This document shows, piece by piece, positions 461 through 25,610 of a stretch of 26,953 nucleotides of DNA. Below the pieces are notes generated by a model, which was given only the letters and a program-made list of their open reading frames with translations, did no database searches and was not told the DNA's origin. The DNA is from a virus: the IMG/VR virus record IMGVR_UViG_3300017613_001362, positions 1 through 26,953 of that record; one strand, given 5' to 3'. A program made the translations under genes and the position numbers. The first letter of the stretch is position 1; each line of letters begins with the position of its first letter.

Positions 461-474
461 TGCAAGCGATTGCA
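461..474 (+). repeat. dispersed 14-bp palindrome, copy 1
   Basis: TGCAAGCGATTGCA, in the non-coding stretch, 33 bp before the 11-bp repeats that open the phased array. The same half-sequence GCTTGCA recurs twice at 509-515 and 520-526. Confidence 0.85.
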
Positions 475-506
475 TGTGTTTTATTTTCACCACTTTGTGG
501 TACATG

Positions 507-665
507 CTGCTTGCAAACTGCTTGCAGACCTCAAGACACCAGTGGCGTAACCTTACGCCATGCATGTCCTGACCTTACGCCACCCATGTCCTAACCTCCA
601 GACACCAGTGGCCTAACTAATAGAGTAAGTTAGGGTTAGTTAAAGAGTAAGTAAGAAGTAACTAA
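507..665. repeat. 22-bp-phased repeat array (iteron-like)
   Basis: Two 11-bp repeats begin at 507 and 518. Four 22-bp units follow at 529, 551, 573 and 595. Units at 529 and 595 share GACACCAGTGGC-TAA; units at 551 and 573 share CCTTACGCCA then CATGTCCT. TGGCGTAA (543-550) and TTACGCCA (553-560) form an inverted repeat with a 2-bp gap. After a 5-bp offset two further 22-bp units begin at 622 and 644, sharing AGAGTAAGT and ending in CTAA or GTTAA. A 22-bp step is about two helical turns, so a bound protein would sit on one face. Binding by the product of the gene at 739 is inferred. Confidence 0.75.
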
Positions 666-685
666 GCGACCAAAAAATCGGTCGC
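666..685. other. small hairpin before the initiator-like gene
   Basis: GCGACC (666-671) pairs with GGTCGC (680-685) around the loop AAAAAATC. A T-run follows only 15 bp later (TTATTTTTTC at 696-705), so it is a weak candidate for a factor-independent terminator. It may instead be part of the origin structure. Confidence 0.35.
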
Positions 686-738
686 GGAATTTAGCCTTAT
701 TTTTTCTCAACTTTAAGAGAGATCAGGGAGGGCAGAAT

Positions 739-1689
739 ATGGGAGAATTAATAGACTTGCGGAAAAATGCTTTCGTGCAGGTCAACACTTTTTTGCGTGA
801 CATGAAGTTTTGTTTCGTGGCCCGCCATTCCGAAGAGATCGTGTTTGACTTTTTGCTCGACAAGACGTTAAGATATCATAAGCTCTCAGCTTGGATTCGG
901 TGCGACGAGTGGAGAGAAACGAGGAGGGCTAGCGGTGGTCAGGCTGTCCCGCCGTTGCAGAAAATGAGCGAAAGACAGTTGGTCAGGGTTCGAAAGAGTT
1001 TGCGCGATAAGGGCTTGATCGACTGTCAGCATGGGAAGGGAAATTACCGGAGTGAGTACTTCATTAATATCAGAGGGTTACGTGACGTTCTCGCCAGAAT
1101 GTATGAAGGCGTGGAGGACGCCAGACTTGCCAAACCTTATATAATGGGCATGCTTGATCAGCTTGCCGAAGAGTCAGAATGCAAGCGCTTGCAATCCGTA
1201 GTGTTGACGGAGGAAGGTATGGAATTAGAAGACAGTTTGAAGAAGCAGGCAGAAGAACAACCGAAGATCACGAAGGCGGTGCATGACAACAGGAAGAAGA
1301 AGGCACTGACCGACAATGGAGTGTTCATATACATCAGGGATATCTGCTATGAGCTTGAGGTTCCGTTCAAGACGACCCACACCCAGAAGGAGAAGCGACA
1401 GGCTCGTATGTGGCTGAAAGAGTGTGAGGCAGCAGCGGTTGACCCGAGGCAGCGGATACGCAGCGTTTGCGATAACTGGAGTTTGATGCGCAGCTTGCTG
1501 AAGAACGAGCATGGGTATCCATTGCAGTTGGGCAACAGGATGAGCTTCCAGCAGTACTACAAGTTCAGGGGTTACGTGGACGGCTGGTTAGCAGGAAGAG
1601 CTGATGATGGACGAGAGACTGAGGAGGTTGAATACATTGACGTTGACAAGTATCTTAAAGAGGGCGTGATGGAGGTAAAACAGAAATGA
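739..1689 (+). CDS. replication initiator-like winged-helix protein
   Basis: 316 aa, starting at ATG 739 behind GGGAGG. The first 120 residues look like a winged-helix DNA-binding domain: the segment MSERQLVRVRKSLRDKGLID is a helix-turn-helix with a typical 'respond and bind' recognition helix, followed by basic wing residues (QHGKGNYRSEYF). This resembles the N-terminal domain of phage O-type replication proteins. The C-terminal half (about residues 185-300) is rich in Trp and basic residues and is not recognised. It lies directly after a phased repeat array and before helicase and primase genes, which fits an origin-binding initiator. An alternative is a transcription regulator. The palindrome copy at 1180-1193 lies inside the gene. 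Confidence 0.65.
   Translation: MGELIDLRKNAFVQVNTFLRDMKFCFVARHSEEIVFDFLLDKTLRYHKLSAWIRCDEWRETRRASGGQAVPPLQKMSERQLVRVRKSLRDKGLIDCQHGKGNYRSEYFINIRGLRDVLARMYEGVEDARLAKPYIMGMLDQLAEESECKRLQSVVLTEEGMELEDSLKKQAEEQPKITKAVHDNRKKKALTDNGVFIYIRDICYELEVPFKTTHTQKEKRQARMWLKECEAAAVDPRQRIRSVCDNWSLMRSLLKNEHGYPLQLGNRMSFQQYYKFRGYVDGWLAGRADDGRETEEVEYIDVDKYLKEGVMEVKQK
1180..1193 (+). repeat. dispersed 14-bp palindrome, copy 2
   Basis: TGCAAGCGCTTGCA, a perfect palindrome inside the initiator-like gene. It is read as Cys-Lys-Arg-Leu-Gln, with the first codon starting on the first base of the motif. Confidence 0.85.
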
Positions 1690-2468
1690 CAGACAAGCCA
1701 GACTATCCGCCGGACACAAAGGAGGAGTTTGTCAATCTTGATGTGGCAGACAGTAGCGGTTTGCGAGATGTCTATCCTTGGGATACTGCCAGGTTTGGCG
1801 GAAGCAGGGAGAAGTTGAGACAGGTGATGATGGATATTCACACCGCAGGTTATCATGTCAGTAGGATTCGAAAGAAGCCAGACGAGAAAGTAATTAAAGC
1901 ATTGGGCTTGGTTCGGGCGATGCTTTACGAGTTGATGATGAAAGCAAAGGCGAGCGACCAGATGCCGTGGCTGGTTCTGAAGTGTAACAACCCGAAGATG
2001 ATGCAAGCGATTGCACTGTATTTTCCAGCAACTTTTGTGTTGTCGGTTAGGAATAAGAAGCCGATGAATTGTTACAGTTGTAGTACGCAGTACTTGAAGG
2101 ACTTGTTTCATCAGAATATTGAGGTGGACTCTTTTGATGCCAACCCGAATCAGGCTCACATACAGAGAATGCGTGGAGCTGGTCTACTGGTTTGGGAGAA
2201 TGTTGTTGATCAGGTGTCTAACGTGATCAAGGACACTGGACGGTATTGCGACATTCTGAGGTATCGGATGAAGAGCCAGTTGCCGACTTTGATTTTGGCA
2301 CCATTTGAAGGGAAGTACGTGAAGGATGCCACAGAAGAAGCGATTTACAACAAGGTGGCAAGCTGTCTTGGAGAGCAGTTTAGACAGTTGTTGGAACTTG
2401 AAGCTGACGAACTATTGTTGATGGTTAAGAAAGATTCTGAATCTAAGGGTAGAGCAGCAGAGGTATGA
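1686..2468 (+). CDS. unknown protein between initiator and helicase; possible helicase loader
   Basis: 260 aa, with an ATGA overlap with the gene before. No Walker A motif is visible. Around residues 155-205 there is a stretch (GAGLLVWENV, then DILRYRMKSQLPTLILAPF) that resembles the Walker B and sensor 1 region of DnaC/IstB-type ATPases, with hydrophobic strand, acidic residue, and a later hydrophobic strand. A helicase loader commonly sits just before DnaB in phage replication modules, so position supports the guess, but the missing nucleotide-binding loop argues against an active ATPase. The palindrome copy at 2002-2015 is inside the gene. Function should be treated as unknown. Confidence 0.6.
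   Translation: MTDKPDYPPDTKEEFVNLDVADSSGLRDVYPWDTARFGGSREKLRQVMMDIHTAGYHVSRIRKKPDEKVIKALGLVRAMLYELMMKAKASDQMPWLVLKCNNPKMMQAIALYFPATFVLSVRNKKPMNCYSCSTQYLKDLFHQNIEVDSFDANPNQAHIQRMRGAGLLVWENVVDQVSNVIKDTGRYCDILRYRMKSQLPTLILAPFEGKYVKDATEEAIYNKVASCLGEQFRQLLELEADELLLMVKKDSESKGRAAEV
2002..2015 (+). repeat. dispersed 14-bp palindrome, copy 3
   Basis: TGCAAGCGATTGCA inside the possible loader gene, read as Met-Gln-Ala-Ile-Ala, a different codon phase from copy 2. Confidence 0.85.
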
Positions 2469-2469
2469 T

Positions 2470-3705
2470 ATGTCAGTTGGCTTAGCGTTCATGAGAAGAT
2501 TATTGTCAGGAGATCAGCAGGTCTCGTTTCTGGCAGATCATAGCATAGATGAGAACTTATTTGAGGATGATGAGAAGGATGCGTTCGAATTCATCAAGAC
2601 GCACATAAACCATTATGGGCAGTTTCCGACAGTGGAGACTGTCCAGGTTGAGACTGGCGTGGAGATCAGAGAGTTTCCAGATGAACCTATTGGGTATTGG
2701 GTTGATCAGGTCAAGAAGCGGAGCCAGAGTGCGCTTATCGCAAAGGCCGTAGATAAAATAAGGGACTCGGTAGTAGACGGGGACATTAGGGATGCCCGAA
2801 GAATAGCAAGGGACATGGTCTTTGACTTGGAGCAACAAGATCCAGTGGACAGGGTAGTAGGTCTGCCGGAGACAGCCGATTTGGTAGTAGAGGCGCATGA
2901 CAGACGGCAAAGGTCAGATGGCTTGTCCGGCGTGCCTTTTGGCATTTCGTATCTTGACAGGGTGTCCGACGGAGCGCAGGGAGGAGACACAGTTGCCGTC
3001 GTCGGACGTCCGTCGGCAGGGAAATCGTATTTGTTGATCCATATGGCGAAAGAAGCTCATGAACATGGCGAGATTCCGCTGATAGTCTCGATGGAGATGC
3101 CAGCAACTCAGGTGGTCAGGAGACTGGTGGCTTTGCGAACAGGCGTTTCTGCAACGAATATCAGGCTTGGACGTCTAAGCTGGTGGACAAGGCAGAGGGT
3201 AGCAGAGGACATCATTTCGCTGGAATCGGAGAGAGGTGGTGGTAGAACTTTCCACATTTTGCAAGGGTCGCTTTACAGCACAGTGCAGGATATTATCTTG
3301 AGGGTCAGGGAACTGATGCCGACAGTGCTTTACGTAGATGGCGCATATTTGTTGAAGTTAGGCAAGGGCGCACCGAAGGCGAGATGGGAGCAGGTGACAG
3401 AGACCGCAGAATTTTTGAAATCGCTTGCAATGGAACTGAACATTCCAGTCATTGCGTCATACCAGTTTAACCGAAAAGGTGCAGGAAGCTTGGCGAATAT
3501 TGGAGGATCGGATGCCATTGGACAGTTGGCAAGTATAGCAATTTCGATAAGAGATGAACCAATGACGAAGGAAGAGGAAAGGGAGAATATTGACAATCCA
3601 GTCAGGTTCAAGATTTTGGAGTTGATGAAGGGAAGAGAGGGAGAGAAGGGTCAGATCAGAATGGTGTTCAATATGGATCGGATGGTTATAGAGGAGGTCA
3701 CATGA
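2470..3705 (+). CDS. replicative DNA helicase, DnaB type
   Basis: 411 aa. Unwinds DNA at the fork as a hexamer, driven by ATP. The N-terminal helical region (about 1-110) fits the DnaB N-terminal domain; the RecA-like core follows with Walker A GRPSAGKS (179-186), the conserved VSMEMP segment, Walker B-like strand VLYVDG, and the IASYQFNRKG motif that matches the Q(L)(N)R sensor of DnaB-family helicases. The length is a little short of E. coli DnaB, as is usual in phages. It starts one base after the preceding stop and overlaps the primase by ATGA, so helicase and primase are probably translated together. Confidence 0.93.
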   Translation: MSVGLAFMRRLLSGDQQVSFLADHSIDENLFEDDEKDAFEFIKTHINHYGQFPTVETVQVETGVEIREFPDEPIGYWVDQVKKRSQSALIAKAVDKIRDSVVDGDIRDARRIARDMVFDLEQQDPVDRVVGLPETADLVVEAHDRRQRSDGLSGVPFGISYLDRVSDGAQGGDTVAVVGRPSAGKSYLLIHMAKEAHEHGEIPLIVSMEMPATQVVRRLVALRTGVSATNIRLGRLSWWTRQRVAEDIISLESERGGGRTFHILQGSLYSTVQDIILRVRELMPTVLYVDGAYLLKLGKGAPKARWEQVTETAEFLKSLAMELNIPVIASYQFNRKGAGSLANIGGSDAIGQLASIAISIRDEPMTKEEERENIDNPVRFKILELMKGREGEKGQIRMVFNMDRMVIEEVT

Positions 3706-4773: not shown

Positions 4774-4787
4774 TGCAAGCGATTGCA
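4774..4787 (+). repeat. dispersed 14-bp palindrome, copy 4 (leader of SSB gene)
   Basis: TGCAAGCGATTGCA, between the promoter and the ribosome site of the SSB gene. A bound protein here could block transcription, so this copy may act as an operator. The 20 bases from here, ending CACCAGAA, are identical to those at copy 8 (14065). Confidence 0.85.
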
Positions 4788-4804
4788 CCAGAAAGGAGTT
4801 CACT

Positions 4805-5569: not shown

Positions 5570-6937
5570 ATGTACAGCAAGGCGATATTGAGCACCCATT
5601 GTTTCGTGCCTATAAAAGAGATCACCTTGGAAGGGATGCGTAGCCTTCTCACCATTAAGAGTAAGTACAGCGAAGACACCGAGGTGAAGCTGTACCAGGA
5701 GGAAGGCGACTGGTTTGGACTGCCGATGTATCACCGGAGAGGACTCAGGTTTGAAGTCTTAAGGGTAGATGATTAGCGGACAGTTGGAGAGCCTGTTAAG
5801 TTCAGATTCAAGTCTGGATACAGGGTAGGCCAGGAAGAGATCATTACGCAATTCGCAGACAGGTTAGAGTACGGATACACCGGAGTGATTTTCGAGGCCC
5901 CGCCAGGATTTGGAAAGACAGTGGTTTTGATCAAGATGATAGAGATGCTTGGCAGAACTACACTGGTGGTGGTCCCGAGATCGAATCTGGTGAAGCAGTG
6001 GGTGGAGCGACTCAAGGAGCATTCCAGCTTAACGGATGCTGATATTGGTGTCGCTCTTGACGGCAAGTGTAAGTGGAAGGGCAAGAAGATAGTTGTTGGG
6101 CTTGTTCATACGCTGACGCTTGACCGTTTTGGAAATGGCTTTCGGGATCATTTTGGTACGGTGGTCTTTGATGAAGTAGACAGAAGCGTGCCTCCGGCAA
6201 CGTTTTCGACGGCAGTCACAATGTTTCCGTCGAAGTACAGGATCGGAGCAAGCGCTACGCTCAAGCGTACAGATGGAATGGATGTGGTGTTTGAAAAGCA
6301 CATTGGCGAGACAAGGATTACTGCGGAAGATGCAAACCGTATGTCGCCGACTGTGATACTCCATTCATTTGACGATAACATGGGCGACGTCTGGGAAGGC
6401 AGCCCGACGCTGAACCGACGTGGGATGCTTCTGTCCATGCTGTCAAAGGACCCGAAACGGAATATGCTGATAGCCTATTACATTGGCTTGATACACAAGT
6501 CAGGTAGAAGGTGTGTGGTTTTATCGGATCGAACGTTACAGTTGTACAGATTGAGAGAGCTGGTAGTTGGTTGCAAAGGTATACCGAGAGATGAGACAGG
6601 TTTCTATGTACGGCAGCTTGATACAGGAAACAGAAAGAAGAGATCCATTACAGAAGCAGAACGGAGACGTGTTGCAAGCGATTGCAATGTGATTTTCGCC
6701 ACGTATGGTATGATGGCTTTAGGAACTGATATTCCAGAGTTAAGCGCTTTGATTTATGCGACACCACAGTCGCAGGTAGAACAATCAAAAGGGAGAATTG
6801 AGAGAGTGTGTGATGGCAAGAAACAGCCAGTCGTCGTGGACATAGTGGATACCGCATACCCAGATGCTAAGAGATGGGCGTTTGCAAGGCAGAGACAATA
6901 CAGAGCAGAGAACTTGAAGATCAAACGCTACAAGTGA
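5570..6937 (+). CDS. superfamily 2 DNA helicase (UvsW/A18-like) interrupted by an in-frame TAG
   Basis: 455 codon positions with TAG as codon 69 (5774-5776). ATG 5570 has AAGGAG. The first 68 residues (VKLYQEEGDWFGLPMY) match the N-terminal substrate domain of phage A18/UvsW-like helicases; after the TAG, in the same frame, come FKSGYRVGQEEII (Q-like motif), Walker A APPGFGKT (110-117), Walker B DEVD (201-204), SAT motif (228-230) and a C-terminal helicase domain ending in QSKGRIERV. No ATG, GTG or TTG lies between the TAG and GTG 5885, which has no ribosome site and would remove the Q-like motif. So one protein is expected, needing TAG to be read as an amino acid. The alternative is a nonsense mutation or a sequencing error. 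Confidence 0.85.
5774..5776 (+). other. in-frame TAG inside the helicase gene
   Basis: Context GAT GAT TAG CGG ACA. Both sides are in one frame and belong to one known protein architecture. See the helicase entry and findings. Confidence 0.75.
6673..6686 (+). repeat. dispersed 14-bp palindrome, copy 5
   Basis: TGCAAGCGATTGCA inside the helicase gene, read as part of Val-Ala-Ser-Asp-Cys-Asn, the third codon phase used by this motif. Confidence 0.85.
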
Positions 6938-6946: not shown

Positions 6947-7387
6947 ATGGCTTGGGATTATAATGAGTGGTACAGACGAAAAGGCAAAAGAGTGCTGTCA
7001 GAGCGCAGAAAGAAGAGGTATCAAAATTCTCCTGCATACCGTGAGACTCAGAGAAAGCGTGCCAGAGAGTATTATCAACGGACTCGCAGTGCCACAGACG
7101 TAAAGGACAGGACGACCGTGATAGCACGCTCCGGCGAACGGTATCATACCATTGGGAGGGTGTCCAAAATGATCAATCGGAATCCGCAACAGATCAGGGA
7201 CTACCATGCCAGCGGTATGCTCCCAGATCCGCTGTTCACGGACACACGTGGCTGGAGATTGTACACCGCAGAGCAGATAATGCTGATGCGGAGAATCTTC
7301 AAGCAGTTGGACCTAAACAAGCTGACACCCACAGAAGCCTCTCGCATGATCCATGATGAATGGAAGGAGAGACTAAATGCCGCGTAA
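6947..7387 (+). CDS. MerR-like helix-turn-helix protein with basic N-terminus
   Basis: 146 aa, ATG 6947 with GAGGAGG just before. Residues 1-55 are very basic and rich in Arg and Tyr (YRETQRKRAREYYQRTR), probably DNA- or RNA-contacting. Residues 66-125 form a MerR-type winged helix: YHTIGRVSKMINRNPQQIRDYHASGMLPDP, then a wing (TRGWRLYTAEQI) and a helix. The usual MerR dimer coil and effector domain are missing, so it may be a small DNA-binding factor, excisionase-like protein or transcription regulator. It sits between the helicase and the recombinase. It is not identifiable beyond the fold. Confidence 0.75.
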   Translation: MAWDYNEWYRRKGKRVLSERRKKRYQNSPAYRETQRKRAREYYQRTRSATDVKDRTTVIARSGERYHTIGRVSKMINRNPQQIRDYHASGMLPDPLFTDTRGWRLYTAEQIMLMRRIFKQLDLNKLTPTEASRMIHDEWKERLNAA

Positions 7388-8815: not shown

Positions 8816-9364
8816 ATGCCAAGCAAACGTTGCGATGCGTGCAATCGCTTGCACAGAATTTCTACCAGTGAGTACCGATATCTGGACACGTCAGGTGGAG
8901 ACTATTGCTGTTCGGTCGACTGCGTTCTTGACTGGATCAGGAAGTTCGACACGTCATGGTGCTGGAAGAGCATTGATGGAGTTTATGAAGTCAGGGATTC
9001 GATGCAGCCGGAGCAGTACTACTCCAGAGTGCTGAACATGAATTTCAGATCCAAGTACGAAGGCGATGTGGCAACGACATTTGCCCACAGGAAGTTGCCG
9101 TTCAGGTATGAGCCGTACCTGTTTCAGATCACAGACACGAAGTATTACACCCCAGATTTTTTCATGCCAACCAATGGATGTTTTGTGGAGGTCAAAGGCA
9201 AGTGGGGCATAGGGCAGCAGTCGAAGCTGGAACTATTCAGAGAGAAATTTCCATTGATCCCATTACTGGTTGTACCTTGGGTGCTAAATGAAGAGTTTTG
9301 CGGAGAGAGTGATAAAGTTGCAGCGCTCCCGAATGGAGCCGCCGAGCGATACAGACATCCCTGA
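8816..9364 (+). CDS. zinc-finger nuclease of the T7 endonuclease I kind (Holliday junction resolvase)
   Basis: 182 aa, ATG 8816 with GAGGAG before it. The N-terminus holds a zinc-finger-like set C6, C9, C31/C32 and C36. The nuclease part, about 75-150, shows the PD-(D/E)XK pattern: E82 in YEGDVA, D114 in TPDFFMP, then E125 and K127 in FVEVKGKW. T7 endonuclease I has the same TPDF...E-x-KG-x-W spacing to within one residue. Expected role: cutting branched DNA in recombination and before packaging. It overlaps the following nuclease gene. The palindrome copy at 8840-8853 lies near the start of the gene. Confidence 0.78.
   Translation: MPSKRCDACNRLHRISTSEYRYLDTSGGDYCCSVDCVLDWIRKFDTSWCWKSIDGVYEVRDSMQPEQYYSRVLNMNFRSKYEGDVATTFAHRKLPFRYEPYLFQITDTKYYTPDFFMPTNGCFVEVKGKWGIGQQSKLELFREKFPLIPLLVVPWVLNEEFCGESDKVAALPNGAAERYRHP
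8840..8853 (-). repeat. dispersed 14-bp palindrome, copy 6
   Basis: TGCAATCGCTTGCA, 24 bp inside the nuclease gene, read as Cys-Asn-Arg-Leu-His. The asymmetric centre is in the reverse direction compared with copies 1, 3, 4, 5 and 8. Confidence 0.85.
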
Positions 9365-10794: not shown

Positions 10795-10823
10795 TTGACA
10801 AAAAAGTTTAACTATGTTATGAT
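10795..10823 (+). promoter_or_regulatory. strong sigma70-type promoter before the AAA+ gene
   Basis: TTGACA at 10795-10800, 17-bp spacer, TATGAT at 10818-10823, with TG one base before the -10 (extended -10). This is the best promoter in the window. The leader of about 85 bases holds two ribosome-like sites, AAAGGAGGAT (10850-10859) and GGAGGGA (10901-10907); only the second serves the AAA+ gene. I found no convincing leader peptide behind the first. Confidence 0.85.
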
Positions 10824-15111: not shown

Positions 15112-15148
15112 TATCTAACTTATAGCATTTTTGAAGAGGAGGGCTGGC

Positions 15149-16225
15149 ATGGCTCTTTTACTGGTTGGCGGAGCAAGACCCAACTTCATGAAGCTGGCGT
15201 CTTTGTATCAAGCTGGAATGTACAATTTTGACATCAAGATTTTGCACACAGGCCAGCATTATGATTATGAGATGTCTCAGGTTTTCTTTGACACGCTGGG
15301 TCTGCCAGAGCCTGACTGGTTTCTTGGAGTAGGTGGAGGCTCACACGCAAATCAAACGGCACGAATAATGGACGGAGTGGAGGCAGTGTTGAATGACATC
15401 AAGCCGGAGATGATGGTAGTGGTAGGAGACGTCAACTCCACTCTGGCTGCAACGATAACTGCCAAGAAGATGAATATTCCCGTAGCTCATGTTGAGGCTG
15501 GCCTGCGGAGCGGAGACAAGCGAATGCCTGAAGAGATTAACAGGATAGCGGTTGATTCGATAAGCGATATGCTTTTTTGCTCAGAGCCTGCTGGCTATAA
15601 GACTTTGGAGTCGGTAGAACCGTGGCAGCGTACAATGCTGGTTGGCGACACGATGATTGATACGCTGATCCGGTTTTTGGACGATGGAGACGAGCACGAT
15701 GTGGCGGACGCACTGCTAAAGAGGCACACAGGCGATTATGCATACCTCACCCTTCACCGCCCGTCTAATGTGGATGTACAGACGGAGCTTGAACAAATTA
15801 TGGCGACCGTAGCGGCTATTTCAGAGCAGATGCCTATTATATTCCCAGTGCATCCAAGAACAAGGAAGAGACTGGCCCAGTGGCAGGTACACATAGGAGT
15901 TAATGTGTATCCTACTGACCCAGTGCCGTATAAGGATTCGCTGGAGCTGATGCGCAATGCCGCATTGATCCTGACGGACAGCGGAGGTATCCAGAACGAG
16001 GCGATGTACTTTCGTGTGCCGTGTGTAACTATAAGGGAGAATACAGAGAGGCCGATAACTGTTGATTGTGGATGTAATGAAGTAGTTGGCACAAGGCCGG
16101 AAGATATTCTTGCAGGAGCCGAGAGAGCCTTCAAGAAATCAGGCCAGCTTGACTACCCCATGCCGTGGTTCTTAGATGGCGAAGCCGGAGTAAGAATCAT
16201 GCGATTAATTGAGGAGGAGATATGA
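15149..16225 (+). CDS. wecB: UDP-N-acetylglucosamine 2-epimerase (non-hydrolysing)
   Basis: 358 aa. Interconverts UDP-GlcNAc and UDP-ManNAc. ATG 15149 has GAGGAGGG. Family hallmarks run in order: GARPNFMK at the N-terminus, TGQHYD, VVGDVNST, HVEAGLRSGD, PEEINR, LTLHRPSNVD, PVHPRTRK, LTDSGGIQNEA with the substrate-binding SGG, and RENTERPIT. The two Rossmann-like halves are complete and the length is normal, so it should be active. It is the first gene of a five-gene sugar cassette and overlaps the next gene by ATGA. The product may feed decoration of the virion, host surface or DNA. Confidence 0.93.
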   Translation: MALLLVGGARPNFMKLASLYQAGMYNFDIKILHTGQHYDYEMSQVFFDTLGLPEPDWFLGVGGGSHANQTARIMDGVEAVLNDIKPEMMVVVGDVNSTLAATITAKKMNIPVAHVEAGLRSGDKRMPEEINRIAVDSISDMLFCSEPAGYKTLESVEPWQRTMLVGDTMIDTLIRFLDDGDEHDVADALLKRHTGDYAYLTLHRPSNVDVQTELEQIMATVAAISEQMPIIFPVHPRTRKRLAQWQVHIGVNVYPTDPVPYKDSLELMRNAALILTDSGGIQNEAMYFRVPCVTIRENTERPITVDCGCNEVVGTRPEDILAGAERAFKKSGQLDYPMPWFLDGEAGVRIMRLIEEEI

Positions 16226-17175
16226 AAGCACTGGTCACAGGCGGTTTAGGTTTCATTGGCGGTGCGGTGGCTCGGCACCTGCTGCGAGAAGGGTATGACG
16301 TTTGGCTTCTGGACAATATGTATGATCCGACCATGACGATCCAGAGTGGAATGCCAAATAGTATGGTGAATCTGCACACGATTGATGTTGCAGATTTATC
16401 AGGGCTGAAGGAGCTGAGTGGAGACATTGACACGGTCTTCCATTTCGCAGGGCATTACGCCAACGTACGTTCGCTGGAAGAGCCGATGGAAAGTATCAAG
16501 ACGAACATGCTCGGCACGATGGCGATTCTCGAATTCTGTAGAGAAAGGGAAATCAAGAAATTGATGTACGCTTCAAGCAGTGGCGTTTATGGCGCGAAGG
16601 AGGTCGTGGCATACTCGGAAAGTTCTCCACCGAAGCCGTCTACTCCGTACGAAGTTGGGAAGTATTCAGGCGAGCTGCTGTGCAGTGGGTTCTGCGAGAT
16701 ATTTGATATCAACCTGATAGCGCCCAGGTTCTTTAACGTTTATGGCCCCGGAGATGTTCCCGGCAAGTACAGAGCAGTGATCCCGAAGTTCTTCCAGACA
16801 GCGTTGAAGGGAGATCCGTTGGTGGTGACTGGCAAGATGGTATCCAGAGACTTCACGTATATAGATGATGTGGTTGCTGGCATCATGGCTGGCATGCGTC
16901 GGATGGATGAAGCGCCGGACAGGATAGAGCTGGTCTACAATATAGGCACAGGCACAGAAGTTTTCATCACGGAGTTGGCGGAGACAATCAAGAAAGTAAC
17001 CAAAAGTGAATCAGAGGTTTTGGTGGAGGAGCTGCGATTTTGGGATAATGCCCCAAGAAGGGTAGCAGACACCCACAAATACAGAGCACTCTTCCCGAAG
17101 CAGGAGGACGCAATGCGCAGCGTCGAAAAAGGATTGGAGGATGCTGCCGATTGGTACATGGAGGTATGTAACTGA
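16222..17175 (+). CDS. NAD-dependent nucleotide-sugar epimerase/dehydratase
   Basis: 317 aa, extended short-chain dehydrogenase fold. The NAD-binding glycines are in VTGGLGFIGG (G7, G10, G13); the catalytic set is SSS around 118-120 with Y143 and K147 (YEVGK). The segments VFHFAGHYANVRSLEEP, NVYGPGD and RDFTYIDDVV are typical of GalE/WbpP-like sugar-nucleotide epimerases. The exact substrate cannot be read from sequence, but the gene directly follows a UDP-GlcNAc 2-epimerase, so a UDP-N-acetylhexosamine is likely. It overlaps both neighbours, indicating one co-translated cassette. Confidence 0.9.
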   Translation: MKALVTGGLGFIGGAVARHLLREGYDVWLLDNMYDPTMTIQSGMPNSMVNLHTIDVADLSGLKELSGDIDTVFHFAGHYANVRSLEEPMESIKTNMLGTMAILEFCREREIKKLMYASSSGVYGAKEVVAYSESSPPKPSTPYEVGKYSGELLCSGFCEIFDINLIAPRFFNVYGPGDVPGKYRAVIPKFFQTALKGDPLVVTGKMVSRDFTYIDDVVAGIMAGMRRMDEAPDRIELVYNIGTGTEVFITELAETIKKVTKSESEVLVEELRFWDNAPRRVADTHKYRALFPKQEDAMRSVEKGLEDAADWYMEVCN

Positions 17176-17849
17176 TGCCGTTCAAAAATGTGTTAGATTG
17201 GTACGACAACCGGATAGATAAGGGAGAGCTGTCGACGTCCGGCTGGTCAAGGGCTTATTCACAGAAGCTGCGGTTCAGGAAGAACGTTCAGATTTACCGG
17301 AGCTTTGTAAAGGAAGGGATGTTTGGCATGCAGAAGGTGGTAGACTTTGGATGCGGCACTGCTGACTTCCTGAAGTTTTTGACAAAGGGAGGCTATCTCA
17401 GCGTTGAAGAGTACGTAGGGATAGAGATAAGAAGCGAGGCGAGAAGGGAAGCTGAAATTGCTTTGTATGATGAGAAGAAGACGAATGGGCATATAACTTC
17501 GGAGATCCCCGATGGGTGGCACATGGAGATGGATCTGGTGGTAGCGAATGCAGCTTATGGCTTTGATAATCAGAATCCTGTAAGGGACATCACGAAGCTG
17601 GTGTCTGTGTTCAAGCCGAAGGTAATCATTGTCGACTTCTTCTCAGAGATGAGACCATATGAGCCAAATATGGATGGGTATAGGGCATTTGATCCGTTTG
17701 ATCTGACAAGGCTTCTGTGCAATCGCTTGCACTCCACAAGATTCATACTCGATCATGAGGCCATGCCGCACGCATTTACCATTGGAGTAGGGTTTGATCC
17801 TACACCTTGGCAAGAAGAGGAGGGTACGCATGCAGATAGGAGCAGATGA
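17175..17849 (+). CDS. class I SAM-dependent methyltransferase
   Basis: 224 aa; ATG overlaps the preceding TGA. Motif I is VVDFGCGTADF (56-66), with YVGIEI as the acidic end of strand 2 and MDLVVANAAYGFDN as the motif IV region. No DPPY/NPPY signature of DNA amino-methyltransferases is seen, which points to a small molecule, sugar or protein target. Its position inside a sugar cassette suggests a methyl sugar. Palindrome copy 9 (17718-17731) lies inside. The 3' end overlaps the following gene by 20 bp. Confidence 0.83.
   Translation: MPFKNVLDWYDNRIDKGELSTSGWSRAYSQKLRFRKNVQIYRSFVKEGMFGMQKVVDFGCGTADFLKFLTKGGYLSVEEYVGIEIRSEARREAEIALYDEKKTNGHITSEIPDGWHMEMDLVVANAAYGFDNQNPVRDITKLVSVFKPKVIIVDFFSEMRPYEPNMDGYRAFDPFDLTRLLCNRLHSTRFILDHEAMPHAFTIGVGFDPTPWQEEEGTHADRSR
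17718..17731 (-). repeat. dispersed 14-bp palindrome, copy 9
   Basis: TGCAATCGCTTGCA inside the methyltransferase gene, read as Cys-Asn-Arg-Leu-His. The residues are the same as in copy 6 although the two proteins are unrelated. Confidence 0.85.
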
Positions 17850-18462
17850 GAGGATATTATTTGTCGGCGCTCATGCCGATGATGTTGAGCTGTTCGCTGG
17901 AGGAACAATGGCAAGATTCGCATCCCAGTCCAGCGTGATCTGTTTTTCAAGGCACAGAGGCATTTATGAGTCTCCAGAAGAGGAGTTTACCGCAAGCTTG
18001 ACCAGCTTAGGGATCTTACCTGTAGCGTCGATCCTGAGCGATCTGGAGGCGTGTGGTGATAGAGAAAACTCGTTCTCGGCGCACAGACAGTTCATTTTTG
18101 ACCTCCTGAGATGCACAGATGGCGTAAGTCTGGTGGTGACACACCAGTCTACGGATACGAATCAGGACCATATAGCCCTACGTGATGAGGTTCTCAGGGT
18201 GTTTAAGGGACGAGTCCCAGTGATTGGAGGCTCGTTTTATGCGAATGACTACCCGTTGGCAGCCAGAACGCTCCTTGTTTCCCTTGCCGTTGAGCATGTT
18301 GAGCGGAAGATTGAAGCACTTAGATGCTACAAATCGCAGCAGAAAGAGCACAGAGGGTACTTTGATCCCGATAGAATATGGGCGGAGGCACGGTACTGGG
18401 GAGGATTCGTCCAAGATGCCGAATTTGCTGAAGCTTTTGAGTCAGAGAGGTTGTGGATATGA
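17830..18462 (+). CDS. PIG-L/LmbE-type N-acetylsugar deacetylase
   Basis: 210 aa, ATG 17830 with GAGGAGGG. Zinc-binding signatures of the family are present: AHADDVE (H15, D17/D18, E20) and HQSTDTNQDH (H105 to H114). These enzymes remove acetyl groups from GlcNAc-containing conjugates such as GlcNAc-phosphatidylinositol, bacillithiol and mycothiol precursors. In this cassette the target is probably an N-acetylhexosamine made or transferred by the neighbours. The length is normal for the family. The stop overlaps the next gene's ATG. Confidence 0.88.
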   Translation: MQIGADERILFVGAHADDVELFAGGTMARFASQSSVICFSRHRGIYESPEEEFTASLTSLGILPVASILSDLEACGDRENSFSAHRQFIFDLLRCTDGVSLVVTHQSTDTNQDHIALRDEVLRVFKGRVPVIGGSFYANDYPLAARTLLVSLAVEHVERKIEALRCYKSQQKEHRGYFDPDRIWAEARYWGGFVQDAEFAEAFESERLWI

Positions 18463-19952
18463 AGAAATTTATCTTTGATCCAGTGTATACGTCAAGGGAT
18501 ACACGCAAATGTATCACCCATTTTGCCTTGGATGAGTGCGCAAGGCACGTATTGAACACGTACGATGATGCTTTTGTGTACTATTTGCGCCCAGCAGAGC
18601 ACAACCACATATTCGAAGAGGAGCTGGCTGAGCTGTTTCCAGGGCGTGTGAAGTATTTTGATGGCAAGTACAGACCCAACAACCGTGTGTATGAGTTCCT
18701 GTGGCGTCCTGATTGGCTCACAGACATCCTGGCACCGACTGGCTTTGCTTGGGATTGGGATGTGTTGGTATCGACCAGAGGACCCGCTCACGGCTATCTC
18801 AGGTGGCTTAACAGTGCGAAGGCGCATTCGGCTAAGAAGGTTGTGATCCATGACCATTTCCCGATATTCAAGTTTAAGTCAGGTGCCCAGTCCATCTTTG
18901 GCGTTTTCCCTGAAATGGAGTTGACTACGTTGACGTCTTACCTGCTTGCAGACTATGTGGTGCCGGAAGCGAAGTACGAAATAAAGGGCATAATGAAGGC
19001 AGCACGTAAATGGTTATCGCCGTCCGCGCAACGTCTCCTAAAAGACAAATTGATAGCGCGATTCCCGATTCCGAGGGATCTGGATACTCGATACGTTTTG
19101 AAGAAGGAGGCGAAGAAGAAGGGTGAAAAGGTTGTAGGCATATTCACGCAGCGGATTGGCATGTCAGGTAGGCATCCAAATGATGTGCTGGAGTCGTTCT
19201 TCTATCCGTTTGTCAAGACCAAGAAAGGGCAAGTGGAGTTCCAGTTGTCGACCAATTCCCTGATGGATCTGCCAGAAGACGCGAACAAGAGGTACTCCTT
19301 TGTGACGTTCAACAAGTCGTTGCGCTCGGAGTTTTATGAGAGGCTACGGCAGTCAGATTTCTGTATAAGCTTCAGCACCACCGAAGGAATGCCAACGTCG
19401 ATTTTGGAGGCGATCATCTGGGGATGCATTCCTATCCTGGTAGATGCGAAATGGTCGAGAGATATGGTAGGCCCAGACTGGCCTTTCTGCTTCAAGGGAT
19501 TCCCGCAAGCAGTGGCAATGGTGAAGAAGATAGCACTCAATCATGCTGAAGCGCACAAGGTATATCAGGATTGGTATAGAGAGTGGTTCATTCCGTATCT
19601 CGACGAAGTTGGAAACCTTCAGGAGATCATGGATAGAGCATGGGCGGATAACGAGAAGAGCCTTGCTGTAGTGCATGATAGTGACGCAAACGAGATCGTG
19701 GAGACGGTCATAGATTACGCAACAAAGAAAGGGTTGGAGAAGTTCACGATTTCTGATATATTTGGTGTGCTGTATAAACAGAAACTCATAAGGACGAATC
19801 CGGCTACGATGAAAGTAGGACAGGCAACCCAGTATGAAATGGGCAAGTGCATTCCTGTCATGCACCCGAAGTACTACCAGCATCTTCATGGCGTTCTAAG
19901 ACACAGTGGATGGAAGCGTGGCTTGGAGCCAGGAGAGGTGATCCCAATTTGA
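18459..19952 (+). CDS. GT-B glycosyltransferase with extra C-terminal domain
   Basis: 497 aa; ATG 18459 overlaps the preceding TGA. The C-terminal Rossmann half carries the EX7E motif, E309 and E317, in STTEGMPTSILEAIIWG, followed by IPILVDAKWSRDMV, typical of GT4-like glycosyltransferases. The N-terminal acceptor half is divergent (YYLRPAEHNHIFEEELAELF). Residues about 400-497 are extra: a helical segment then TMKVGQATQYEMGKCIPVMHPKYY and a basic end (RHSGWKRG), resembling a small winged DNA-binding module. That domain is unusual on a sugar transferase. It closes the sugar cassette. Confidence 0.83.
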   Translation: MKKFIFDPVYTSRDTRKCITHFALDECARHVLNTYDDAFVYYLRPAEHNHIFEEELAELFPGRVKYFDGKYRPNNRVYEFLWRPDWLTDILAPTGFAWDWDVLVSTRGPAHGYLRWLNSAKAHSAKKVVIHDHFPIFKFKSGAQSIFGVFPEMELTTLTSYLLADYVVPEAKYEIKGIMKAARKWLSPSAQRLLKDKLIARFPIPRDLDTRYVLKKEAKKKGEKVVGIFTQRIGMSGRHPNDVLESFFYPFVKTKKGQVEFQLSTNSLMDLPEDANKRYSFVTFNKSLRSEFYERLRQSDFCISFSTTEGMPTSILEAIIWGCIPILVDAKWSRDMVGPDWPFCFKGFPQAVAMVKKIALNHAEAHKVYQDWYREWFIPYLDEVGNLQEIMDRAWADNEKSLAVVHDSDANEIVETVIDYATKKGLEKFTISDIFGVLYKQKLIRTNPATMKVGQATQYEMGKCIPVMHPKYYQHLHGVLRHSGWKRGLEPGEVIPI

Positions 19953-19953: not shown

Positions 19954-19967
19954 TGCAATCGCTTGCA
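19954..19967 (-). repeat. dispersed 14-bp palindrome, copy 10 (before the ParB-like gene)
   Basis: TGCAATCGCTTGCA in the 27-bp gap between the glycosyltransferase stop and the ParB-like start; the ribosome site GGAGGT (19970-19975) begins 3 bp later. A bound protein would cover the ribosome site region. Confidence 0.85.
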
Positions 19968-19979
19968 ATGGAGGTGGTT

Positions 19980-20885
19980 ATGAAACAGAAAACGAAGCAA
20001 AAGAAAGAAGGTAAGGCAGAGGTAGGAAAGGTGGTAAAGAAGCCGGAGCATGGCGATGTGCTGGTTGTGCCGTTGAAGGATGTTGAGTACAATCCGTGGA
20101 ATCCGAATGAGATGAGCGCGGATGAGTTCAATCTGCTGTCTGAGAATATAGAAGACGTGGACAACCTTCAGCCAGTGCTTGTGGTCCCGCTGGAAAATGT
20201 AGATGGCGTCCAGAAGTACCGATGCATTGATGGAGAGCACAGGCTTGAAGTTGAACGGCTAAGAGACACCGAAATGGTGAAAGTGGTTTATGCCGACCCG
20301 AAGCTGTTTGATGAGACAATGCAGAAAAAACAGACAGTTAGGATGAATAAGATCAAGGGTTCGTTGAACCAGAAAAAGTTCAACATGCTCGTCAAGGATC
20401 TGATCGACACTGGAGGATTTTCGTACGACGACCTTGGCAGAGAGCTTGGCTTTGCTGATGAGGACGAATTCCAGCATTTACTGGATCATGCAAGAGATGG
20501 ATTGAATCCAGAGATGCAGTCTGAGTTCGATGCCGCAAGAGAAGAGATCAAGACCGTTGATGATCTGAGCATGGTGTTGAACAGGCTGTTCACGAAGTAT
20601 GGCGATACACTGCCTGCCAACTTTATGATTCTTGATTTTGGAGGCAAGTCGCATATATGGGTGAAGATGAGACATGCATCGTTCAGAACGATAGCGGATC
20701 AGGCAAGAGAGGCGATGGCCTCCGGCAAGACGTTCGATTCTCTGATAGAGCACGTGATGACTACCCTGCCAGTCCAGAGGTACATAGAGAAGTTTGCCGA
20801 TAATCTTGCTGACGTGACTGAAGAAACTGGCACTCACATGGAAGTAGTTGGTGAGGGCGCTACAGAACTTGAGGATCTGTTATGA
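19980..20885 (+). CDS. ParB/Srx-domain protein
   Basis: 301 aa. ATG 19980 is chosen because GGAGGT lies at 19970-19975. Residues 20-115 form the ParB N-terminal (Srx-like) domain: VPLKDVEYNPWNPNEM, then a ParB-type binding strand and DGEHRLEVERL (G85, E86, H87, R88), the segment which in ParB binds CTP. A helical middle part (SYDDLGRELGFADEDEFQHLL) could be the DNA-reading helix-turn-helix. The C-terminus is acidic and ends in TELEDLL. Such proteins in phages can partition plasmid-like prophages, or serve packaging. One palindrome lies just before the gene. A direct link is a hypothesis. Confidence 0.82.
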   Translation: MKQKTKQKKEGKAEVGKVVKKPEHGDVLVVPLKDVEYNPWNPNEMSADEFNLLSENIEDVDNLQPVLVVPLENVDGVQKYRCIDGEHRLEVERLRDTEMVKVVYADPKLFDETMQKKQTVRMNKIKGSLNQKKFNMLVKDLIDTGGFSYDDLGRELGFADEDEFQHLLDHARDGLNPEMQSEFDAAREEIKTVDDLSMVLNRLFTKYGDTLPANFMILDFGGKSHIWVKMRHASFRTIADQAREAMASGKTFDSLIEHVMTTLPVQRYIEKFADNLADVTEETGTHMEVVGEGATELEDLL

Positions 20886-21631
20886 GCAGTGGTCAAAGAC
20901 AACTGACTGAGGAGGTTCAGCTAACCGGACAGTCAATCATAAACAAGCTGAGGGAAGCTGCCGCTCCGCCTGGAAAGAAAGGCTCCTGGCTAAAGCTGTT
21001 GAGCGATAAGCAACTCGCAGAAGTTTTCCACAGATTGAAGCTGGGGCAGACCTCCCTGTATATTGCGAAGATGGCACAGAGAGAGTGGAATGTTAAACCG
21101 TCTTCACAGCCAAAGTCGCTTGCAAGATCGGTAAGATCTTTTCGTGACAAGATAGTTGGAGAGTTAAGAAAGACTGATGCCAAGAAAGAAGGGCAGAAGG
21201 AAGTCCTTCAAGATATGATGAAACGTGGCAAGCGGATTGTTGACAAGCTGGATGGCCTTGGTAGGTTACGCTGGCTGATAGAGGAGCAGACTGATAGAAT
21301 TCAGGTGCTCCGTGAAAGAGAGAAGTCGTCCATTCCGTTTGAGATAACAGAGAAGGCAGTCCGCAATGCGAAGGAGCTGCTGGAAGTTTACCTGAAATTC
21401 CAGATAGAGCTTGGACTACTGGACAGCAAGCCGAGTGAGCACAATATAGAAATCATGCACAGGTTCGATGGTTTGATGGCGAACACGTTCACAGATGATG
21501 GTGCAAGGCTGATCAATGCTGGAACGAAGTTTCTGGAATTGGCAGAGAAGAGATCCTTGACCCTTGAGAGAAAACCGGACGGCTCGTTTGCGTTGGAAGG
21601 AGGAATAGATGAAAGTGATTCCGCTGAATGA
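20882..21631 (+). CDS. helical protein before the large terminase; candidate small terminase
   Basis: 249 aa, ATGA overlap with the ParB-like gene. The first 85 residues look like a helix-turn-helix domain (LLSDKQLAEVFHRLKLGQTSLYIAKMAQREW), followed by a long amphipathic helical region (125-190), probably a coiled coil for oligomerisation, and a Ser/Asp end. DNA-binding N-terminus plus oligomerisation region directly before the large terminase is the usual layout of a small terminase (TerS), but sequence similarity is not clear enough to be sure. It overlaps the terminase gene by 23 bp. Confidence 0.6.
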   Translation: MSSGQRQLTEEVQLTGQSIINKLREAAAPPGKKGSWLKLLSDKQLAEVFHRLKLGQTSLYIAKMAQREWNVKPSSQPKSLARSVRSFRDKIVGELRKTDAKKEGQKEVLQDMMKRGKRIVDKLDGLGRLRWLIEEQTDRIQVLREREKSSIPFEITEKAVRNAKELLEVYLKFQIELGLLDSKPSEHNIEIMHRFDGLMANTFTDDGARLINAGTKFLELAEKRSLTLERKPDGSFALEGGIDESDSAE

Positions 21632-23624
21632 TGCGGTCGAACTTACCATCGAGGCCGCTCAGGGTTTAGGCATGTCGCCGGACTATGAGGAAGCATGGCG
21701 TCTCTTGATATCATCAGTCCAGCCGATTATCGTAGACGACAAGGAGTTCTATAGAACGGCAGACTTGCAAGGAGTGATCAAGAATATGCTAAGGGCCTGC
21801 CAGTCCAAGGACTCGTCGTACATTGTCCAGAAGAGAGGATTGCGTGTTGACAGGGTAGTAGACATTCAGGAATTTTGCGAGAGCGCAGAGTTCATGAACC
21901 AGAAGGGATAGGTCAGACCGAAGATCATGTATGAGCTGCAAAGATTGTTCAAGAGTGAAAACTATATCGAAGCCGTATTGACAGGAGCGATAGGTATAGG
22001 AAAGAACTATTTTGCAGACATGGCGATGGCATACATGCTGTATCACCTGTCCTGTCTCCACTCACCGCAGTTGGAATACGATCTTGCCCCAGGATCATCT
22101 ATCATTTTCATTCAGCAGTCCATGACCGCTACGCTGGCTAAGAAGGTTGTGTTTGAGCAGTTTGCTGAAAGACTGAGACTCAGTCCGTGGTTCAAGGAGC
22201 ACTTCCCGTTTGATCCGAATTTGAAGTCGGAGCTAAGATTCCCCAAGAATATTTACGTCCTCCCAGTAGGTGGCGCAGACACAAGCGCAATCGGCATGAA
22301 CGTTTATGGAGGAGTCATTGATGAGCTGAACTTCATGGCAAGGGTCAAGGGAAGCGTGCACACAAAGTATCAGAAAGATGATGAGTACGATCAAGCGGAG
22401 AGAGTCTACTCAGCTTTGATTCGAAGGATGAAATCTCGTTTCATGCAGAAAGGCAAGATTCCTGGTAAGCTGTTGCTGGTATCGTCTGTCAACTATCCAG
22501 GCGACTTCACAGACAGAAAGGTGAGTGAGGCCAAAGTAGATGAAACGATTTTTGTCATGAACTACAGCCAATGGGAAGTGCTTCCGGCTGATAGATTTTC
22601 AGGCCAGACGTTTCTTGTAGAGATTGGAAACGAAGTGAAGCAGTCAAGAATCCTGAGAGATATGAGCGAAGCCCTTGATGAGGAAGATGTGATCAAGGTG
22701 CCTACAGAATACAAGCCAGAGTTTGAGCGTGATCTTGAAGCTGCGCTGAGAGACCTTGGAGGTGTGGCGACTGGCACGAGGCATCCGTTCATCCCGTACC
22801 GTGAGCTGATTATTCAGGCACAAGAGACACACGCCTTGCAGTACGAAAACAGGCAGCTTTTCTTGAGAGAGGAGGTTGTCATTGATGAGGTGGTGGATGA
22901 GGAAGTGCAAGACTGGGAGAACTTGATTAATGTGGATTATCTGTCAGAGCATGTGATTGATCCGAATATGGCATTTGCGATGCATATAGATGTTGGTATC
23001 ACAGGAGATGCAGCAGGTGTAGCGGTTGGCAGAATTACAGGCTACAAGCTTTTGCCGACAACAAAGTATTTCAATGAGCGCCTAAAGGACTTTGTGGAAG
23101 TCACAGACATCAGGGTTCCCATCTATACGATTGACGGAGCGTTGAGGGTAACAGCGCCCCCTAACGGCGAAGTGGATCTGGAGATGCTGAGAGATATGGC
23201 ATTGTGGCTTAGAGGGAAGATCAACCTGAAATGGGGAACGATGGATTCGTACCAGTCGACTATGTTGATCCAGTCGTTCAGGAAGTCAAGGATCAGGTCA
23301 GGAGTACTGTCAGTTGATACGTCACTGGCACCGTATTCAGAGGTGAAGCTGGCAATCAAAGATGAGCGCCTGCTGATTCCACCGCATTTGCATTTGGCAA
23401 AGGAATTGCGCGAGCTGGAAAAAGATGAGAAGAAAGTGGACCACCCGCCGGGAGGATCAAAGGATGTTTCGGATGCAGTGGCTGGTGTGGTGTACATGCT
23501 GCAAAAGAAGGAAGCGTCTTATGGCACAGCGACTGGCGCGAGAAGACGAAGTGGATCAGGAGCAAGGGTGAAGAGAAAGCTCAACGATCCTGGCGTCAGA
23601 AAAATCAGAACGAGAACAAGATAA
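21609..23624 (+). CDS. large terminase (TerL) interrupted by an in-frame TAG
   Basis: 671 codon positions with TAG as codon 101 (21909-21911). ATG 21609 has GGAGGA. The part before the TAG ends VVDIQEFCESAEFMNQKG, and after it VRPKIMYELQRLF then YIEAVLTGAIGIGKN (Walker A-like, 126-133) and MLYHLSCL; this continuous run is the usual N-terminal region of one group of phage terminases. Walker B is GVIDE (D238, E239). The nuclease half follows with HIDVGITGDAAGV, GTMDSYQS and KDVSDAVAGVVYML. ATG 21927 after the TAG has no ribosome site. So the TAG appears to be read. Walker A ends in Asn in place of Ser/Thr. The protein packages DNA into capsids. Confidence 0.86.
21909..21911 (+). other. in-frame TAG inside the large terminase gene
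   Basis: Context AAG GGA TAG GTC AGA. The frame is open on both sides and both sides belong to one terminase architecture. Confidence 0.75.
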
Positions 23625-24776: not shown

Positions 24777-24801
24777 CAAAAGCGCAAACCTATGATAGGT
24801 A
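24773..24801 (+). promoter_or_regulatory. sigma70-type promoter before the histone-like gene
   Basis: TTGACA at 24773-24778, 17-bp spacer, TAGGTA at 24796-24801, with TATGA just before the -10. A TATGAT also sits at 12-bp spacing (24791-24796), which is too close for a normal sigma70 promoter. It shares TTGACAAAA and the TATGnTA pattern with the promoters at 10795 and 14093. Confidence 0.6.
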
Positions 24802-24835
24802 AAGAGTTGAAACTAAATTGAAAAAGGAGAAGCAC

Positions 24836-25039
24836 ATGGGCGTGAAATCCAAAATTGAAGAGATCATTGGCGTGTTCGAGGGAAAGCTGGAAGCAATGAA
24901 AGATGATGCAGTCAAGTTTGATGCTGGCAATGGAGCTGCCGGAACCCGTCTCAGGAAAGCGTTTATGGATTTAAGGAACGATGCGCAGAGAGTGCGGCAG
25001 GGCATTCAGAAGATCAAGACTGACCGAAAAAACGCCTAA
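24836..25039 (+). CDS. histone H1/Hc1-like small DNA-binding protein, 67 aa
   Basis: ATG 24836 behind AAAAAGGAG. The core NGAAGTRLRKAFMDLRNDAQRVRQGIQKIKTDRK matches the bacterial histone-H1/Hc1 family pattern GNxAAGTRxRKA-x-L-x-A-x-R-x-IQ-x-K, seen in Chlamydia and Bacteroidetes proteins that compact DNA. The N-terminus is a short acidic-basic helix. It has a dedicated promoter, suggesting high expression, and could compact phage or host DNA. The family call rests on a short pattern. Confidence 0.62.
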   Translation: MGVKSKIEEIIGVFEGKLEAMKDDAVKFDAGNGAAGTRLRKAFMDLRNDAQRVRQGIQKIKTDRKNA

Positions 25040-25054
25040 AGGTATTCAGATGAT

Positions 25055-25327
25055 ATGGAGGACAGCGATTCCAGGGAGAGGCTCAGAGGAATTCGTGAGA
25101 TGCGTGAGAGAGCAAGCGAGTTTGATGCCATACTTGCGAAGCGTACGAAGAGAGCCAGAGAATACCGAAAAGAGCTGTACTCAGCATTGAGAATAGCAAA
25201 TGGGAGAGTTGGAGGAAAAGAACACTTTCTCAAGACAGAGGCGAGAATAAAAGCAGGGTCTAAGCTAAGTTTGATGGAATTTGTCTCAACCCTTATAGAG
25301 AGGAATGGTGATGGCACAGAACGATAA
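25055..25327 (+). CDS. charged helical protein of unknown function, 90 aa
   Basis: ATG 25055 with TAAAGG upstream. Arg/Glu-rich, mainly helical (RERLRGIREMRERASEFDAILAKRTKRAREYRKEL), probably a coiled coil, with a globular end. It overlaps the zinc ribbon gene by 17 bp. No family recognised. Confidence 0.65.
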   Translation: MEDSDSRERLRGIREMRERASEFDAILAKRTKRAREYRKELYSALRIANGRVGGKEHFLKTEARIKAGSKLSLMEFVSTLIERNGDGTER

Positions 25328-25610
25328 GGCTGAGTTTTTGCAAGCGCTTGCAAAAGCGCCAATTCATGTGTGTAAAGCATGTGGGAGTAGATACTTCACG
25401 AGGCTGTTCATGATAAAGCATGTCAAGAAAGAGGGAAAGCCTGATCAGATAGTGCAGGTGCCTCATGGAATGATATGTGCCTCGTGTAAGATAACGTTCT
25501 CCCCCGATTTCCCTGTGTTACCAAACACAGAAGGAGCAGCACGGATGGGTTTTAAGGATATGGCAGAGGCAGAAGTGAAGAAACCCACAACCGAGGAGGA
25601 GAAGAAATGA
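25311..25610 (+). CDS. zinc ribbon protein, 99 aa
   Basis: ATG 25311 is preferred over 25305 because GAGAGG lies 7 bp before it. Four cysteines in two CxxC pairs (CKACGSRYFTRL and CASCKITF) make a zinc ribbon. Such small ribbons often bind nucleic acid or a protein partner. Palindrome copy 11 lies 28 bp into the gene. The stop overlaps the next gene by ATGA. Function beyond metal binding unknown. Confidence 0.75.
   Translation: MAQNDKAEFLQALAKAPIHVCKACGSRYFTRLFMIKHVKKEGKPDQIVQVPHGMICASCKITFSPDFPVLPNTEGAARMGFKDMAEAEVKKPTTEEEKK
25339..25352 (+). repeat. dispersed 14-bp palindrome, copy 11
   Basis: TGCAAGCGCTTGCA, a perfect palindrome, flanked by T on the left and A on the right, making a 16-bp perfect palindrome. 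Read as Leu-Gln-Ala-Leu-Ala, the same residues as copy 7 in an unrelated protein. Confidence 0.85.

Follow-up and report, generated by a model that had tools for sequence, protein, structure and literature searches.

The chromosomal sites bound by ParB, Noc and RacA are dispersed palindromes of 14-16 bp, much like the sites considered below. On plasmid RK2, KorB, a global repressor of the ParB family, acts from operators (OB) that lie either 4-10 bp upstream of promoters or far from them (PMC11790492) and the KorB operon is reported to be self-regulated (PMC3502259). Temperate phages of the L5/cluster A group carry more than 20 short stoperators, at promoters and elsewhere, which are asymmetric, oriented along transcription and bound by a monomer (PMC9283540). 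Here we describe a dispersed palindrome in the virus record IMGVR_UViG_3300017613_001362, the whole 26,953 bases of which are referred to as the window. Arrays of this type occur throughout a family of related phages, change in motif from phage to phage, coevolve with one phage protein, here termed g, keep a position ahead of its operon, stand in a preferred geometry to promoters and, in two relatives, belong to phages that live as plasmids. We consider it likely that the palindromes are operators of the phage-encoded g, in a KorB-like dispersed system that regulates itself and silences or organises the genome.

The 14-base word TGCAAGCGMTTGCA is present in 11 exact copies in the 27 kb of the window, with a chance expectation of about zero; the copies and positions reported in a preliminary description of this sequence were all recovered. 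When up to two mismatches were allowed, 24 strand-matches were counted against a mean of 0.63 in dinucleotide-preserving shuffles, none of 100 of which reached 24. Because the only near-miss, with a single mismatch, is that at 3416-3429, the set of sites is sharply bimodal. Seven copies fall within genes; between them they use every codon phase, and the peptides encoded are unrelated (CKRL, QALA and ASDC, as described before, and also QAIA), which supports the earlier contention that selection acts on the DNA and not on the protein; the remaining four (461, 4774, 14065 and 19954) are intergenic. The sites are as follows (ORF, open reading frame):

461-474, plus strand: site TGCAAGCGATTGCA, intergenic
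1180-1193, no strand assigned: site TGCAAGCGCTTGCA, a perfect palindrome, inside ORF 739-1689
2002-2015, plus strand: site TGCAAGCGATTGCA, inside ORF 1686-2468
3416-3429, minus strand: one-mismatch near-site TGCAAGCGATTTCA, possibly degenerate, inside the DnaB-like gene
4774-4787, plus strand: site TGCAAGCGATTGCA, immediately 5' of the SSB-like gene (ATG at 4796)
6673-6686, plus strand: site TGCAAGCGATTGCA, inside the helicase gene
8840-8853, minus strand: site TGCAATCGCTTGCA, at the start of gene f
10743-10756, no strand assigned: site TGCAAGCGCTTGCA, where the RuvC-like gene ends, ahead of the promoter of the operon that holds an AAA gene and g
14065-14078, plus strand: site TGCAAGCGATTGCA, ahead of gene i, with a TTGACA box 14 bp further on
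17718-17731, minus strand: site TGCAATCGCTTGCA, inside a methyltransferase-like gene
19954-19967, minus strand: site TGCAATCGCTTGCA, immediately ahead of the ATG of the ParB_N-domain gene
25339-25352, no strand assigned: site TGCAAGCGCTTGCA, inside ORF 25305-25610

Relatives were collected by a terminase scan of IMG/VR, which gave 18 loci, most of the genomes being metagenomic fragments. Dispersed palindromes built on the same template, usually TGCAA-N4-TTGCA, with a sequence specific to the phage, were seen both in these relatives and in isolated Rhizobium, Stenotrophomonas, Aeromonas, Rhodobacter and Pseudomonas phages. The motif of the window, which across relatives reads TGCAA[G/T]CG[A/C]TTGCA with TGCAA-N4-TTGCA as its constant part, recurs in 3-18 copies in contigs G001, G004, G010, G032, G033 and G037. 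It has 0 copies in further relatives, in which the repeated word is TGCAAACGTTTGCA (17 copies in 98 kb, G052), TGCAATAAATTGCA (20 in 95 kb, or 29 counting centre variants, G054), TGAAATCAATTTCA (31 in 92 kb, G058), TGCACACGTGTGCA (10 in 77 kb, G059), TGCAATCAATTGCA (four, G053), TTTCA-N6-TGAAA (seven, G056), TGCAAT-N3-ATTGCA, with one extra base (four, G057), or a word of the TGAACACGAGTTCA type (five, G067). No array was seen in G060, G062 and G064, partial contigs that lack the g region.

Among isolates, TGCAA-N4-TTGCA sites number 31 in the 96.5 kb of Stenotrophomonas phage DLP_5 (DLP5; 26 with the centre TCAA), 16 each in Aeromonas phage HJ05 and Rhizobium phage RHph_TM16, and 38 in the 100 kb read of Rhizobium bangladeshense plasmid p7 (NZ_CP071625.1). 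Five more isolates were selected because they have a g homolog or are closely syntenic, and four of the five bear an array: L338C (24 sites in 50 kb), Pseudomonas phage SM1 (14), RcZahn (four) and Vibrio phage ValSw4 (13 sites of the form GCAAT-N2-ATTGC); the fifth, Vibrio phage VHS1, has none. T4 has none. Of 21 other IMG/VR stretches retrieved because they held one copy, none had a comparable array save L098, itself part of family member G055. Single 14-mer matches in IMG/VR were discarded as arrays, most contigs having one site, as by chance. The difference from host DNA on which the preliminary description had made its claim depend was seen in the Rhizobium case, the only one compared: over 50 kb of each, the phage-plasmid p7 carries 22 sites and its sibling plasmid p6 none. 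Conservation between related phages, the other such point, is borne out by arrays that are kept and by the recurrent position described below. In most genomes the sites are spaced more evenly than at random, with coefficients of variation (CV) of 0.35-0.6 against about 0.9 for random placement (for example CV 0.35 in G010 and G032 and 0.48 in DLP5; p<0.001). The window shows no DNA similarity to isolated phages, and a search of the open-access literature gave no earlier account of such an array in this group of phages, which is not proof of its absence.

To compare placement, sites were located relative to the genes of 13 family members. In all 13, a site (14 sites in total) lies in the short gap that separates the RuvC-like gene from the AAA-g operon, although about seven different motif sequences are involved and random placement gives a maximum of about four per 250 bp. 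The start of gene f is a second kept place, occupied in the window phage and five relatives. Where no AAA gene precedes g (DLP5, HJ05, p7, L338C, RcZahn and SM1) a site is found 72-138 bp upstream of g, and in G058 one lies between AAA and g, at a distance from g within the same range. Across the genomes searched, TT[GT]ACA with a good -10 box occurs in the 46 bp beyond 27 sites, about two being expected, and the distance from site to -35 box peaks at 7-9 bp; at the operon promoter of the window the spacing is longer, at 38 bp. Intergenic sites are over-represented (86 of 285 against 22.8 expected, figures that are approximate because they depend on our ORF calls). An orientation rule for asymmetric sites was considered and dropped, as our tally in four phages (about 27 against and 15 with transcription) amounts to a weak bias only.

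Since the motif is not the same in all the phages and their hosts include both Alpha- and Gammaproteobacteria, the protein that reads the sites is likely to be encoded by the phages themselves. The relevant features of the window are:

10795-10823, plus strand: sigma70-type promoter-like sequence TTGACA-17-TATGAT of the AAA-g operon
10914-12476, plus strand: AAA+ ATPase (phrog_8638, PF00004), encoded by the gene that opens the operon containing g
12492-13358, plus strand: protein g (phrog_17202, 288 residues), candidate palindrome-binding protein by coevolution, position and predicted fold
19968-20885, plus strand: ParB_N-domain protein adjoining the terminase genes, weighed as site reader and unsupported

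Sixteen proteins common to the family were compared as candidates. Class-diagnostic alignment columns proved uninformative, at 0-2 per protein, and distance-based tests were used for that reason. The ratio of mean identity within the GCGM class to that between classes is 1.37 for g and 1.05-1.19 for the other proteins. Partial Mantel tests were used to relate the distances between motifs, whose halves were set by us from the discovered arrays, to the distances between versions of each protein, after correction for the mean over the other proteins; g gave r=0.54 (p=0.001, 18 phages) and, in two subsets restricted to the family, r=0.62 (p=0.0005) and r=0.66 (p=0.001); none of the 15 other shared proteins reached p<0.05. 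Accordingly g, the protein whose variation tracks the change of motif, is probably the reader of the palindrome. The earlier suggestion that a single protein probably reads all copies gains support; the preliminary description had not singled out this gene. It had named a ParB-like protein for testing, but the annotated one, the ParB_N-domain protein beside the terminase, is not supported: it is absent from the array-bearing G056 and G059, and it does not coevolve with the motif (partial r about 0.05). A search for related loci with this protein as query returned none. A LacI-family protein, to whose operators the sites were likened there, is not supported either, PF00356 having no match in nine motif-carrying contigs.

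A further instance comes from G012, which has almost no genes in common with the family, yet carries the same palindrome in a longer form, TTGCAAKCGMTTGCAA, and also encodes a distant g-like protein that is a member of DUF3102 (PF11300). The g homolog of RHph_TM16 matches DUF3102 weakly, and the g of the window does not score as a member; proteins of DUF3102 may more widely be binders of dispersed sites. G012 (IMGVR_UViG_3300010163_003566; L151, L138) has at least three TTGCAA[G/T]CG[A/C]TTGCAA sites.

The phrog_17202 profile matches the window protein (E 8.4e-23), that of Rhizobium p7 (2.8e-46) and that of SM1 (2e-20). In the AlphaFold model residues 24-154 of g form a confident all-helical domain, with a mean predicted local distance difference test score (pLDDT) of 92, for which the top plausible PDB matches are Spo0J-parS and ParB (probability 0.84-0.97, template modelling score 0.5-0.58), the better ones superposing at a root-mean-square deviation of about 3 A over 100 residues; the RuBisCO accumulation factor Raf1 trails them closely. 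The order of a helix-turn-helix (HTH) and the segments 'GWTKMKEIA' and 'MSxRELxEAVK', judged by eye, appears to parallel a ParB DNA-binding domain, and residues 24-154 are predicted to be a ParB/Spo0J-like DNA-binding domain. Pfam gave nothing credible for g, the ParB_N CTPase domain (PF02195) matched none of 13 g proteins, and a PDB sequence search with the g profile gave one spurious match only.

Evidence for the lifestyle of the group comes from relatives. The DLP5 prophage replicates as a plasmid (PMC5834331), DLP3 is thought to do so in the prophage state (PMC7326821), and R. bangladeshense p7, which bears phage genes for capsid, tail and replication, was sequenced as a plasmid; these phages thus have a real need to stay silenced over long periods and to be inherited stably. 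In the mechanism that we propose, g would probably be a dimer with an N-terminal HTH fold of the ParB/KorB type and no CTPase domain. Bound upstream of its own operon it would regulate itself; at sites 7-9 bp upstream of -35 boxes it would control initiation, as KorB does at a proximal OB; and at the many intragenic sites, in steps of 2.5-5 kb, it may stall transcription or silence it, may organise and hold the plasmid-prophage DNA, or may do both. It is the KorB-like arrangement together with plasmid life that leads us to propose an autoregulated dispersed-site silencer that probably also organises or keeps the plasmid prophage. Repression at promoters, as opposed to activation, and a part in partition or genome organisation are what we infer for g; at promoters it may repress or activate, and its wider part may be in silencing or in partition.

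Several points weigh against this proposal. Binding of g to the palindrome is something we infer. No sequence profile ties g to ParB or KorB, the Foldseek E-values (0.3-2) are not significant, and the g-like match in G012 is distant (E 1.3e-5, with a low-complexity tail). The Mantel test reduces the effect of shared ancestry and does not abolish it. About 70% of the sites lie inside genes, far from evident promoters. Two Vibrio phages have g and no clear array: in Vibrio phage VHS1 a g homolog is present but no array is detectable, and the array of PJ32 is weak. Plasmid life is seen in relatives only. Neither an integrase nor a ParA nor a known repressor was identified, ParA not having been sought across whole genomes.

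Comparison with the described systems indicates where the array may belong. It resembles KorB/OB in its palindromic sites dispersed over the replicon, in an autoregulated operon, in a proximal spacing that is mostly 7-9 bp, within the 4-10 bp of KorB (PMC11790492), and, as a prediction only, in the ParB-type DNA-binding fold. It differs in that a ParB_N CTPase domain cannot be recognised in g, nor any similarity of sequence detected, in the number of sites (up to 38 on a phage genome), in a motif that changes from phage to phage, and in that no counterpart of KorA was identified. With the ParB, Noc and RacA sites it shares the predicted ParB-like fold of the reader, whereas here the sites are on a phage genome, the CTPase domain is lacking and some sites stand at a fixed distance from -35 boxes. 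DUF3102 is alike in that the G012 member accompanies the same palindrome, and unlike in that the window g is not a member. The array would act in the manner of both KorB/OB and the mycobacteriophage stoperators, but since it lacks a defining feature of each, namely the CTPase domain of the former and the oriented asymmetric sites of the latter, we file it under neither. The analogy to stoperators and parS drawn in the preliminary description was apt.

Two other explanations deserve tentative consideration, neither of which we think probable. The sites could form a distributed centromere, parS-like, with g as the centromere-binding protein of a plasmid prophage and regulation of its own promoter, which occurs in many plasmid partition operons, as a secondary function. 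The ParB-like predicted fold, the plasmid prophages (PMC5834331), the over-even spacing and the intragenic position of most sites would all suit this, whereas the promoter geometry is not needed by a centromere, no ParA-type ATPase is recognised beside g (the neighbour is an AAA protein, PF00004, whose gene is not adjacent to g in DLP5, HJ05 and p7), and known phage parS sites are clustered repeats, such as parS-L/R of RedRock (PMC7157519). Alternatively g could be a prophage repressor conferring stoperator-type immunity, its intragenic sites halting elongating RNA polymerase. Dozens of sites genome-wide agree with this, as does the diversification of specificity among relatives, site and repressor being reported to drift together in cluster A mycobacteriophages (PMC6550527, PMC9283540). 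The cluster A sites are, however, asymmetric and follow transcription, while those described here are palindromic or nearly so, with asymmetric ones pointing both ways, and lie mostly within genes instead of in short gaps between them; g is also predicted to have a fold unlike that of the cluster A repressor. A more doubtful variant combines these roles: g, a ParB fold without the CTP clamp, would compensate through evenly placed sites genome-wide, repressing promoters and coating or segregating the phage-plasmid, possibly as one part of a split ParB whose other part is the ParB_N-domain protein.

The two remaining candidates are very improbable. A host LacI/PurR-like regulator or nucleoid protein might read the sites or be titrated by them, and TGCAANCGNTTGCA matches the LacI-family operator pattern, but centres such as TAAA, TCAA and CCAG have no CG step, the motif is not constant among the phages and follows one of their own genes, the sibling host plasmid has no sites in 50 kb, and the nine phage contigs searched encode no LacI protein. 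The MerR-like protein (6947-7387), which has a MerR HTH, is kept across the family and might act in the manner of RacA, a 14-bp-site binder with dispersed sites, shows a partial r of 0.08 (p=0.30) and no systematic site upstream of its gene in the 13 members.

These results supply a concrete hypothesis of function for the phrog_17202 family, so far without an assigned role, relatives of which occur in at least 61 records of phages of Vibrio, Pseudomonas, Rhizobium, Rhodobacter, Stenotrophomonas, Aeromonas and Agrobacterium. They point to a layer of control that carries no annotation in the genomes read here, and bear on how large phages persist as plasmids; the roughly 18 phages, with their differing sites and matching series of proteins, constitute a natural experiment on the joint change of specificity in a DNA-binding protein and the dozens of dispersed sites that go with it.

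Directly after g the window encodes a small HTH protein (13538-13858, HTH_31-like), a homolog of which was not found in the relatives examined. The gene content of the window otherwise comprises replication genes (DnaB-like helicase, primase, SSB-like, helicase, RecA-like), a sugar-nucleotide cassette and a terminase region. The cassette (15131-19952) lies between the replication and packaging genes and by eye contains UDP-GlcNAc 2-epimerase-like, NAD-dependent epimerase, methyltransferase-like, PIG-L deacetylase-like and glycosyltransferase-like genes; annotated cassettes of like kind occupy the equivalent place in DLP5 and RHph_TM16. The frame of the terminase large subunit (21609-23624, plus strand) is interrupted by one in-frame TAG (21909-21911) and is whole in G001 and G004. 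Recoding of TAG was considered as the cause; because eight ORFs of the window as called, the terminase fragment included, end in TAG, there is no general recoding. The DLP5 annotation includes a suppressor tRNA-CTA.

In G010 (IMGVR_UViG_3300005613_004609; L141, L142), RecA, AAA, primase and terminase contain insertions that resemble inteins and include HNH or LAGLIDADG parts; this contig also has about 10 copies of a second repeated 14-mer, GTTGAACTGGTTGA. G027 (IMGVR_UViG_3300025674_000176; L152, L153), which is unrelated to the family, contains other repeated palindromes, namely ATTACT[C/G]AGTAATA (about nine copies) and GATTTAAATC.

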